From the NCBI RefSeq assembly GCF_000332355.1, contig NZ_KB235959.1, forward strand, positions 351,260 to 415,259: a stretch of 64,000 nucleotides of DNA, read 5' to 3'. The first letter of the stretch is position 1; each line of letters begins with the position of its first letter. A program made the position numbers and the translations under genes. The notes beneath the pieces were generated by a model. It searched no databases. It saw nothing but the letters and a program-made list of their open reading frames with translations, and was not told where the DNA came from. The stretch is from Baaleninema simplex PCC 7105 (GTDB lineage Bacteria > Cyanobacteriota > Cyanobacteriia > Cyanobacteriales > Geitlerinemataceae). Of the stretch, positions 4,196 through 29,742 are shown piece after piece.

Positions 4196-4834
4196 ATGAC
4201 TGACACCCCACAACGTATCGTCTTTTGCGATTTCGACGGAACCATCACCGCCGAAGAAACCTTTGTCGCCATGTTGAGGGAATTTACCCCAGACGTCGCC
4301 GATCGCTTGCTTCCTCAAATTTACGAGTTGAAACTCACCTTGCGCGACGGCGTCCGACAAATGCTCGAATCGATTCCCTCCTCTCGCTACCCGGAGGTGT
4401 TGGAATTCGCCAAGTCGAAAGCCATTCGTCCGGGGTTGGTGGAACTGCTGGATTTCCTCGAGGAACAACAGGTTCCCTTCGTGGTGATTTCTGGGGGATT
4501 GAAAGGAATGGTAGAGGCGGTTCTCGGAGACTTACAACCTCGCGTTCGGGGAATTCACGCCGTTGAAGTCGATACCACGGGAGCGTATTTCCAACCCCAC
4601 TCGGAGGTTGAAGGGGAGACGGAATTGGTGGCGAAAGTCGAAGTCGTCAAACAGTACGGCGTTGACGATTGGGTGGCGATCGGGGATTCGGTGACGGATT
4701 TGAATATGGCGATGGCTGCGCCGTTAGTCTTCGCTAGAACTCGTCTGTGCGAGTATCTCGAGGAACGGGGGAAAGCTTACGAACCCTTTGAAACCTTTTT
4801 CGACGTGCGCGATCGCCTGTCGCAATTGTGGTAA
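4196..4834 (+). CDS. mtnX: HAD-superfamily phosphatase, MtnX-like
   Basis: A 212-residue haloacid-dehalogenase phosphatase. The DxDGT nucleophile motif is present as DFDGT at residues 12-16, followed by SGG and the Mg-binding GDSVTD near the C terminus. Size and helical cap (HAD subclass IB) match 2-hydroxy-3-keto-5-methylthiopentenyl-1-phosphate phosphatase of the methionine salvage pathway. No other salvage gene is next to it, so the substrate is inferred from family resemblance. The ATG at 4196 is preceded by AGGAGA at 4187-4192, which decides the start against a 50-residue longer frame. The gene stands alone, divergent from prfC. Confidence 0.75.
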   Translation: MTDTPQRIVFCDFDGTITAEETFVAMLREFTPDVADRLLPQIYELKLTLRDGVRQMLESIPSSRYPEVLEFAKSKAIRPGLVELLDFLEEQQVPFVVISGGLKGMVEAVLGDLQPRVRGIHAVEVDTTGAYFQPHSEVEGETELVAKVEVVKQYGVDDWVAIGDSVTDLNMAMAAPLVFARTRLCEYLEERGKAYEPFETFFDVRDRLSQLW

Positions 4835-4877: not shown

Positions 4878-4973
4878 TTTTTTGCATTTCGCGAATTCAG
4901 TTTGAATTCTGTCTGAGTTCTAGCGACCTTTGAAGCGCGATCGCCGAAACTCCAGAAAAAACAATAACAATGG

Positions 4974-5288
4974 AAAAACAGCGACACCAAGATCGGCTTG
5001 TTGAGCGACTTCCCCATATTTCTTCGAGGTTCCTTGGAGGTGAATTAAGCGACTGCTTAGCTGCATGGCTCCCATTCTCTAAGTGGAGGAAATATCAACG
5101 TCTCGATAAGATGCCGCTGTTTTTCGTGATGGGACAGATGTTATGTTCGACAGCGTTTTTTACCTCTTTACTTGTGTGGACTGCGCTGTTGTGTATCTGC
5201 CTAGAAGCTATCTAGTAGCTTCTAGCTTTAATGTAGTTTGTTTTTGAGAAGACGACAAGGGCTTGTAACCAAAGTTTACACTCTCGGA
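4974..5288 (+). ncRNA. tandem structured RNA, unit 1 of 4 (family not recognised)
   Basis: First of four diverged tandem copies. A long-range helix pairs AAAAACAGCG (4974-4983) with CGCTGTTTTT (5115-5124). It encloses a small TAAGC/GCTTA hairpin and the core GCTCCCATTCTCTAAGTGGA near 5069. Downstream, CAGAT (5135-5139) pairs with ATCTG (5195-5199), where the other units have CAGAC/GTCTG. ACAGCG (5150-5155) pairs with CGCTGT (5184-5189). A terminator-like AGAAGCTA/TAGCTTCT hairpin (5203-5222) is followed by a T-rich stretch. The 26-nt block GACAAGGGCTTG...AAAGTTTAC (5254-5279) ends the unit. An 81-codon frame overlaps it at 4970-5215 but is not kept in the other units. Family and function are unknown. 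Confidence 0.7.
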
Positions 5289-5359
5289 AATTCACCTGAA
5301 TTGCTCGTCAGACTCTTCGATTTCAAACTCAACTTTTATAAGGCGATCGCCTGGCAAAA

Positions 5360-5705
5360 ATACGCCAAAAAACAACAACGTTCGGAGTGGTCTAACGCTT
5401 GAATTTCCCCTTATTGCTTGAGTCTATCTGGAGATGCCTTGAGTAACTTTTTTGCAAAGTCTACTTTGGCAAAGCTCCCTAAGAACTAGGTGGTGGAAAT
5501 TGTCGTGACGCGATCGAACGTTGCTGTTTTTCGTGATGGGACAGACGTTAGAATTGACAGCGTTTTTACCTCTTGAACTTGTTTGGACTAGGCTGTTAAG
5601 TAAGTCTGCCTGGATTGAAGCTCCTTTAAGCTTCTAGTTTTAGAATAACGCGCGTCTTTTTTTTTGACAACGACTTGATACTAAACTTTACGTTCGTGAA
5701 AGTTT
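5360..5705 (+). ncRNA. tandem structured RNA, unit 2 of 4
   Basis: Second copy, the most diverged in its middle. The long-range helix is CAACGTTCG (5376-5384) with CGAACGTTG (5515-5523): different bases from unit 1 but the same position. The loop between the arms holds a GCAAAGT/ACTTTGGC hairpin where units 1 and 3 have AAGC/GCTT. Then follow GTGATGGGACAGAC pairing with GTCTGCC, ACAGC with GCTGT, and a GAAGCT/AGCTTC hairpin (5617-5633). A run of nine T lies at 5656-5664, as in an intrinsic terminator. The terminal block is GACAACGACTTG...AAACTTTAC (5666-5691). Confidence 0.7.
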
Positions 5706-5774
5706 TACTATGTTGGAGGTTCTTGGGGTTTAAAACTGACGCTAAAGATACCCTTGAGAGAGATATCGCCCTAA

Positions 5775-6097
5775 ACCATAACAACGCCCAGATCTTCCGA
5801 ACGAGTGACCTCTTCTGGTTTTTGAGATTTTCTGGAGATGAACTAAGCAACCGCTTAGTCTCATAGCTCCCATTCTCTAAGTTGAAGAAGTATCAGTTTC
5901 TAGATTGGGCGTTGCTGTATTTTGTGATGGGACAGACTGTTGATTTAACAGCGTTTTTACCTCGTTTTAACTACTGTGGATTAGGCTGTTTAATGTCTGC
6001 CTAGAAGCTTTTCTTTAAGCTTCTATTGTTAGAGTAATCCTTCTAAAATTTTATGGCAAGGGTTCGACACTAAACTTTACGTAAATCTTAGAAGGTG
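5775..6097 (+). ncRNA. tandem structured RNA, unit 3 of 4
   Basis: Third copy. The long-range helix is CAACGCCCA (5782-5790) with TGGGCGTTG (5906-5914), a third independent pair at the same place. Inside are the AAGC/GCTT hairpin and the core AGCTCCCATTCTCTAAG near 5864. AACAGC pairs with GCTGTT, CAGAC with GTCTG, and AGAAGCTT with AAGCTTCT (6003-6024). The terminal block GGCAAGGGTTCG...AAACTTTAC (6055-6080) is clasped by CCTTCTAA (6039-6046) and TTAGAAGG (6088-6095), so this 3' part probably folds too. Confidence 0.7.
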
Positions 6098-6154
6098 AGA
6101 ACGACTCTTGAAACGTTAGTGAATTTCTGAAATTCTTGCTTTGCTCGATCGCCT

Positions 6155-6470
6155 TCAAATACGACAACACCCACAACCGATGTAACGATTAACTTCCCCA
6201 ATCTTTTAGACTCCATAGAGGTGAACCAGACATCGCCTAGTTGCATAGCTCCCATTCTCTAAATGGAGGAAGTATCGATTTTTCGTGTGGGTGTTGTGGT
6301 TTTCACGTAGGGGACAGGCGTTAGAGTTAACAGCGTTTTTACCTCGTTAGAAATCGTGTGATATAGGCTGTTTTTGTCTGCCTGAAAGCTCTTGTTTTAG
6401 CTTTGATTATTACTTTAATGAGTCCTGCGATCGATGACAACCCCTTGAAACCAAAGTTTACTGCCATGAT
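6155..6470 (+). ncRNA. tandem structured RNA, unit 4 of 4
   Basis: Fourth copy. The long-range helix is ACAACACCCACA (6164-6175) with TGTGGGTGTTGT (6286-6297), again with changed bases on both sides. The core AGCTCCCATTCTCTAAATGG lies near 6247. AACAGC/GCTGTT, CAGRC/GTCTG and an AAAGCT/AGCTTT hairpin (6385-6404) follow. The terminal block GACAACCCCTTG...AAAGTTTAC (6436-6461) is closed by ATCGATG and CATGAT. No fifth unit follows. Confidence 0.7.
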
Positions 6471-6504
6471 AGTAGTACTTATTTTCTATGAACTTATGCA
6501 AAGA

Positions 6505-6577
6505 ATGGGGAATCGGGAACGGGGAACGGGGAATCGGGAACGGGGAATCGGGAATGGGGAATCGGGGAACGGGGAAC
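6505..6577. repeat. short tandem repeats (GGGGAAC/GGGGAATC)
   Basis: A run of GGGGAAC and GGGAATC heptamer-type units after the RNA array. It is the complement of the TTCCCTG-type repeats found at 8862, 13848 and 55871. Such short tandem repeats are common in filamentous cyanobacterial intergenic DNA. Confidence 0.8.
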
Positions 6578-29285: not shown

Positions 29286-29742
29286 GGTAGAGAAAGCAGT
29301 CATAAGCCGGGTTCTGTTCTCGACGCCACCAAGGGCATCGAGGGCAGTTATCTATCTGGGACGCCTGTTACCAGACGCCTCGAGCGGTTCTCCAAAAGCG
29401 AGACCGGTAAAAGACCAACCGTCGTCTCTTCGACCTTGCACCCACCTGGGGTTTACCGAGCCAGCACCTCTCGATGCTGCTGGTGCGCTCTTACCGCACC
29501 TTTGCACCCTTACCTTTTACAGTGAGCAGTCATCAGTGAACAGTGAACAGTGATGACTGCCTGCTGTAAAAGGCGGTATGTTTCTGTGGCACTGTCCTCA
29601 CGCTCGCACGCACTGGGCGTTACCCAGCAGGTTCGATCTTTGGGGAGCCCGGACTTTCCTCGAACGGACGTTCTGTCAGGGCGATCTTTGAGGGTCGCCA
29701 CCGCGATCGTCAGTCCGCAACTGCCTCGCCTACTTTCTCTAC
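29286..29742 (-). ncRNA. rnpB: RNase P RNA
   Basis: Read on the minus strand it contains the universal GAGGAAAGTCCGGGCTCC near the 5' end, CAGTGCCACAGAAA, GGTAAACCCC, and at the 3' end CAGATAGATAACTGCC and ACAGAACCCGGCTTA. The P1 helix pairs the ends (AGAGAAAG near 29740 with CTTTCTCT near 29290). These are hallmark elements of bacterial type A RNase P RNA, which matures tRNA 5' ends. The outer ends are approximate. A 59-nt repeat hairpin sits inside (29514-29572). Confidence 0.95.
29514..29572 (-). repeat. short-tandem-repeat hairpin inside rnpB
   Basis: CTTTTACAG...CTGTAAAAG encloses CAGTCATCA...TGATGACTG, with GTGAACA heptads in the loop. It is fully palindromic, so it can extend a helix of the RNA without disturbing the core. 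The same GTGAACAGTGA words occur at 15400, 48370 and 50590. Repeat insertions in the P12 helix of cyanobacterial RNase P RNA are known from the literature. Confidence 0.85.

Follow-up and report, generated by a model that had tools for sequence, protein, structure and literature searches.

Four tandem genes for a predicted ~265-nt structured RNA with a Shine-Dalgarno-like loop in Baaleninema simplex, and their relatives in the class Cyanobacteriia

The window, a stretch of 64,000 nucleotides of the Baaleninema simplex PCC 7105 genome, contains four diverged tandem units between about positions 4964 and 6470, spaced about 385–410 bp apart. Judged from sequence comparisons, each is with a probability of roughly 0.9 a gene for a non-coding RNA of ~265 nt that is free-standing, highly structured and transcribed from the minus strand, with a promoter of its own. 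The units are 62–75% identical to one another in pairwise ungapped comparison, and a genome-wide search of the host (6.15 Mb, 8 contigs) returned exactly these four copies. The block GGGACAGAC-N10-ACAGCGTTTTTACCTC occurs three times at one mismatch or fewer and not at all in 100 shuffles, and no reading frame is common to the four units on either strand. Including their promoters, units 1 to 4 extend to about 5279, 5691, 6080 and 6461. The predicted transcripts run from just before a 5′ hairpin to the tail of a probable terminator helix, P1, with the start inferred from the position of the -10 element; the scores are those of matches to R2, a minus-strand covariance model.

6147-6405, minus strand: unit 4 RNA, first transcribed (predicted; R2 match 6147-6412, 184.4 bits)
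5764-6024, minus strand: unit 3 RNA (predicted transcript; R2 match 5764-6031, 203.5 bits)
5358-5635, minus strand: unit 2 RNA (predicted transcript; R2 match 5358-5642, 178.8 bits)
4964-5223, minus strand: unit 1 RNA, last transcribed (predicted; R2 match 4964-5230, 181.4 bits)

An initial annotation, made from the letters of this DNA, had placed four tandem structured RNAs here, with shared conserved blocks and a long-range helix drawn from a different base set in each copy. The units and blocks are present as it described them, and the arms of the helices differ between units yet pair within each unit. On the minus strand the promoter is followed by a 5′ hairpin (GAAGC..GCUUC), a near-invariant domain closed by the helices GRCAGAU/AUCUGUC and ACAGC/GCUGU, and a long covarying rod. 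The rod (~150–170 nt) consists of P1 (~17 bp), P2 (UUUCCUC/GAGGAAA), P3 (GGGAG/CUCC) and a variable tip, and its limits in the four units follow from inverted repeats and covariation.

6158-6303, minus strand: unit 4 rod and P1, arms 6158-6175 and 6286-6303
5773-5923, minus strand: unit 3 rod and P1, arms 5773-5790 and 5906-5923
5368-5531, minus strand: unit 2 rod and P1, arms 5368-5384 and 5515-5531
4973-5125, minus strand: unit 1 rod and P1, arms 4973-4986 and 5112-5125

The proposal that the copies are tandem paralogues whose RNA fold is under selection, for which covariation had been named as the test, is borne out by strong covariation once homologues are added. Paired cells in the minus-strand fold amount to 89.7%, against 81.5% in shuffled and 37–49% in slid controls, both-sided changes are found in 56 of its 63 base pairs, 17 of 17 pairs of P1 are compensated, and the covariation score in the minus-strand reading is 0.294 versus 0.159; the cells counted here are sequences and not independent events, and a model was used to fit the alignments. 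The plus-strand fold also lies above every shuffle and slide (119 distinct aligned rows), although the minus-strand fold performs better. An unsupervised mutual-information scan placed its top pairs nearly all within the rod helices. The consensus P1 runs into a U-rich tract, which is pronounced in units 1 and 2 but weak in the remaining two, and this closing helix together with the tract probably ends transcription. The AGAAGCT-type hairpin near T-rich DNA that the initial annotation took for the end of each unit is the 5′ hairpin beside the promoter and not a 3′ terminator.

Either strand folds, since the rod nearly equals its reverse complement. The units had been assumed to be plus-strand RNAs. 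In that reading T-rich DNA follows plausible hairpins at the 3′ end, and a plus-strand covariance model also finds the family, as is expected of a near-palindromic rod. We nonetheless regard plus-strand RNAs as very unlikely, as they are disfavored by the asymmetry between G-U and A-C oppositions, the scores of matched models, the promoter box and the position of the terminator. Well-paired columns read as the plus strand contain 162 A-C and 65 G-U oppositions, despite an alignment fitted to that strand, and in sequence-only MAFFT alignments of the same 27 members, which were not fitted to a model, the ratio of G-U to A-C is 20:46 on the plus strand and 48:20 on the minus strand. R1, the plus-strand model, comprises 27 members, R3 is a minus-strand model matched to it in sequences and extents, and R2 is a better minus-strand model. 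R3 scored above R1 in 84 of the 93 members outside the training set, with a median gain of 9.6 bits (Wilcoxon p = 3e-13, related sequences among the 93 not being independent). Wobble asymmetry, held-out model scores and the conserved promoter thus strongly support a transcript on the minus strand, which reverses the 5′ end of the units and gives the conserved loop the sequence GAGGU and not ACCUC. An anti-Shine-Dalgarno (anti-SD) loop (ACCUC) on a plus-strand RNA was among the candidates considered and was rejected on the same strand evidence, the RNA carrying the complement.

Promoter elements precede the 5′ hairpin at a fixed distance. TAnnnT, usually preceded by TG (TGnTAnnnT), is placed exactly 13 nt upstream of the hairpin in 86 loci of a non-redundant set of 96, and a box with the consensus AAnnGTAAAnTTT..TT.CA lies at -47 to -28 from the -10; since the -10 search imposed the TAnnnT pattern, it is the position of the -10 and the upstream box that count as independent evidence. 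About 40 loci have a CTTG -35 at a spacing of 16–17 nt. The box and a -10 are present in all four units in the window, together with a TTG-type -35 at a spacing of 17 nt, and a neutral sigma-70 scan recovered two of the four promoters, both on the minus strand: TTGTCA-17-TAAAGT (6440-6412) and TTGTCA-17-TATTCT (5670-5642).

6435-6461, minus strand: unit 4 upstream promoter elements, box GTAAACTTT at 6461-6453 and -35 TTGTCA at 6440-6435
6412-6417, minus strand: unit 4 -10 TAAAGT, 17 nt from the -35
6031-6080, minus strand: unit 3 promoter, box GTAAAGTTT at 6080-6072, -35 TTGCCA at 6059-6054, -10 TACTCT at 6036-6031
5642-5691, minus strand: unit 2 promoter, box GTAAAGTTT at 5691-5683, -35 TTGTCA at 5670-5665, -10 TATTCT at 5647-5642
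5230-5279, minus strand: unit 1 promoter (by sequence inspection), box GTAAACTTT at 5279-5271, -35 TTGTCG at 5258-5253, -10 TACATT at 5235-5230

A promoter of its own at a fixed distance, looked for as a mark of a free-standing sRNA, is therefore found. The promoter box implies that expression of the RNA is regulated, and the box, AAGTAAASTTTAGTTTCA, is possibly the binding site of an activator. It is highly conserved (~95 loci) and is retained in Nostocaceae loci that have no -35.

In the host's order, R1 gave matches in 243 of 293 genomes, representing 107 of 122 genera. With R2 the RNA was detected in 134 of 291 genomes sampled across the class Cyanobacteriia, 101 of these outside the host's order; among the genomes without a match some are incomplete or may have copies that have diverged, and loci within a clade are correlated. 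Relatives were returned from 22 of 59 genomes by nucleotide search, and a phylum-wide draw located the RNA only inside the class. A pattern scan of named genomes found it in Nostoc, Fischerella, Scytonema, Chlorogloeopsis, Spirulina, Planktothricoides, Coleofasciculus, Leptolyngbyaceae and others, and seven pattern matches outside the cyanobacteria, which have no model match, are attributed to chance. Genomes usually contain one to six copies, mostly a single one in heterocystous genomes and Nostocaceae, and tandem copies recur in several lineages. Within divergent clades (L237, L238, L239, L240, L241) the RNA appears to be enlarged by repeated modules of rod and Shine-Dalgarno (SD) loop in one transcript.

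The initial annotation could match the units to no known family, and this agrees with our searches: Rfam 15 gave no match over the units at the gathering score or at E values up to 5, and nothing meaningful over 12 homologous loci. Searches of the open literature and with sequence strings returned no account of the RNA, and an unnamed entry is possible in the sRNA table of PMC4734099, a Nostoc catalogue that accepted segments of 45–350 nt, or in subscription papers.

Several copies in some genomes and varied neighbors might suggest a mobile or selfish repeat, a reading that we consider scarcely credible. The copies here are tandem and diverged, genomes usually have one or two, neither a recombinase nor a reverse transcriptase was noticed in the flanks, and covariation and the conserved promoter indicate function. 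Phage records gave no match and plasmids one weak match; two short contigs of a viral collection carry the RNA pattern. A mobile, phage or plasmid element was rejected on these searches.

The array ends against a convergent gene for a HAD phosphatase (4196-4834, plus strand) downstream of unit 1. Upstream of unit 4 is a DUF4278 gene (7018-6707, minus strand), preceded by a glutamine (glnA) riboswitch aptamer (7136-7056, minus strand, 55 bits). Relatives within the host's family likewise have a DUF4278 gene close to the array, and a tandem repeat of a GAATGGG-type heptamer (6503-6576) lies between the array and the DUF4278 gene. Elsewhere in the window is a gene for class A RNase P RNA (29289-29736, minus strand, 252 bits).

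Among 129 copies, 49 lie 25–466 nt upstream of and in line with one conserved cyanobacterial gene of ~256 codons (for example L024:371-1138, minus strand), eight of them at 25–36 nt, which leaves little room for a second promoter. Such copies fit a cis-acting leader, in which the promoter would be followed by a structured leader and the terminator P1, and the gene would be set by read-through. As a general account this is improbable: 26 of the 129 copies have a gene converging on them at a distance of up to 300 nt, 27 lack any close gene and others have different neighbors, the array in the window ends against the HAD phosphatase gene, and the host's own copy of the 256-aa gene lies apart from the RNA, on another contig (C8:313048-313809). 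The RNA thus does not consistently form the 5′ leader of a gene in the same direction, as a cis-regulatory leader or riboswitch would, and convergent or absent neighbors suggest that in general it is free-standing and not the leader of a neighboring gene. Where it does lie close upstream of the co-directional gene, transcripts may partly read through into the mRNA.

The 256-aa gene is present in 69 of 100 genomes of the order. Its product has sub-threshold similarity to nucleoside deoxyribosyltransferases and no Pfam family above the cut-off, and the C-terminal half of a predicted model of moderate confidence (pLDDT 70) resembles DNPH1/TIR-like folds. Several genomes have the gene and no match to the RNA, so the two do not strictly co-occur and the gene was rejected as an obligate partner.

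The near-invariant domain presents an unpaired SD-like loop, RGAGGUAAAA, whose core lies at the following positions in the window.

6341-6345, minus strand: unit 4 SD-like loop GAGGU
5959-5963, minus strand: unit 3 SD-like loop GAGGU
5568-5572, minus strand: unit 2 SD-like loop GAGGU
5162-5166, minus strand: unit 1 SD-like loop GAGGU

The loop varies among the homologues (GAGGU, AAGGAG(U) and AGGAGGU, the last in divergent clades), and every variant is complementary to the anti-SD. At least 5 nt complementary to ACCUCCUUU are found in 96 of 98 loops and in 25 after shuffling each loop, a control that ignores relatedness, the loop being one conserved and phylogenetically correlated motif. The 16S rRNA of the host ends in ATCACCTCCTTT, which matches the loop. 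No start codon or constant frame follows the SD-like loop in the homologues (distances modulo 3 are distributed 33/28/27), and a coding sequence behind the motif is ruled out by the absence of a start codon and a spacing that does not preserve frame; a shared protein frame was thus seen neither in the four copies nor behind this motif. Base pairing within the RNA between the GAGGU loop and the rod strand UUUCCUC was also rejected, as there is no covariation between them and the rod strand does not follow in the AGGAGGU clades.

Retention of anti-SD complementarity without a start codon or frame, together with the matching 16S tail of the host, suggests docking on the 30S subunit. The best explanation as a whole is, in our view, a free-standing minus-strand RNA that docks on the ribosome in trans, which we hold at a little under even odds. 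The rod would stabilize the RNA and hold a protein, and the unpaired loop, an SD without a start codon, would pair with the 3′ tail of 16S rRNA on the 30S subunit. The RNA would then be a ligand of the ribosome or of the initiation complex that tunes translation once the conserved promoter is switched on, with tandem copies raising the dose.

Separate parts of this proposal are less secure. Docking on the 30S subunit taken by itself is tentative, a protein or an mRNA being about equally likely as the ligand, and action in trans jointly with docking is held with similar reserve. We are more doubtful still of the broadest version, a class-wide, start-codon-less SD mimic that would dock on the 16S anti-SD and exert global control of translation initiation. 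The loop could instead serve a protein or tertiary contact, and the same minus-strand RNA may serve as a scaffold for a protein or as a conventional antisense sRNA, its conserved domain recognizing mRNAs or a dedicated protein and GAGGU contacting structure or protein and not the ribosome. This possibility, which we rate as somewhat unlikely, accords with conservation of the near-invariant domain as a whole, beyond GAGGU, and with cyanobacterial sRNAs known to pair with mRNAs, such as Yfr1; it leaves unexplained the anti-SD complementarity of AGAGGU, AAGGAGU and AGGAGGU alike, and no partner protein strictly co-occurring with the RNA was found. Either of these roles, docking or a protein or mRNA ligand, is more likely than a general leader role or 6S-like action.

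More than 80% of the genomes in a major order of cyanobacteria have an RNA that Rfam lacks. This is a gap in basic annotation, and it affects well-studied organisms, since Nostoc, Fischerella, Scytonema and Spirulina carry the RNA. A specific covariance model is now available, as are a predicted strand, promoter and terminator, so that the RNA can be annotated, and if its loop binds the ribosome it would represent a new mode of translation control by a non-coding RNA.

Of known RNAs the one most readily suggested by the rod is cyanobacterial 6S RNA (ssrS/ssaA, RF00013), which likewise has a long self-complementary rod with a large internal loop, is similar in size to the rod domain and is widespread in cyanobacteria. 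A 6S-like RNA would bind RNA polymerase, its rod with internal loops imitating an open promoter. We consider this quite improbable, as 54 of 59 relatives have a separate 6S gene elsewhere in the genome (the host has one weakly), R1 and R2 match none of 30 6S loci, and the Rfam 6S model does not match the units. These separate loci and absent cross-matches rule out identity with 6S RNA, to which the new RNA has no relation in sequence or covariance model. It also differs in its additional 5′ hairpin and SD-loop domain, the latter the most conserved part, and in a rod whose closing helix doubles as a terminator-like stem. The probable 6S RNA of the host is at C4:2045504-2045716; at 27 bits it is below the Rfam cut-off, as in several relatives of the family, and annotation based on Rfam would therefore overlook 6S in this genome.

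The glutamine riboswitch (RF01739), on the same strand 600 bp upstream of the array, is an unrelated short aptamer that precedes the DUF4278 gene and not the RNA units.

NsiR1, to which the units had been likened, is heterocyst-specific. The comparison stands for a tandem array of non-coding RNAs and fails in other respects: the array described here has four long units (~390–410 bp), each with its own promoter and probable terminator and a predicted RNA of ~265 nt, the RNA is spread across the class, and unit length and neighbors differ from those of NsiR1. In Nodularia the NsiR1 array consists of 12 short repeats upstream of hetF (PMC3610870).

The Yfr1 and Yfr2 families resemble the new RNA in being free-standing, conserved across most cyanobacteria and marked by one ultra-conserved unpaired motif. 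For Yfr1 this is CACUCCUCACACC (PMC4734099), which is absent from the consensus of the new RNA; the latter instead carries a motif of the opposite sense, GAGGUAAAA. At ~265 nt it is three to four times longer than these RNAs (Yfr1 is ~55–65 nt), has no homology to them and adopts another fold.
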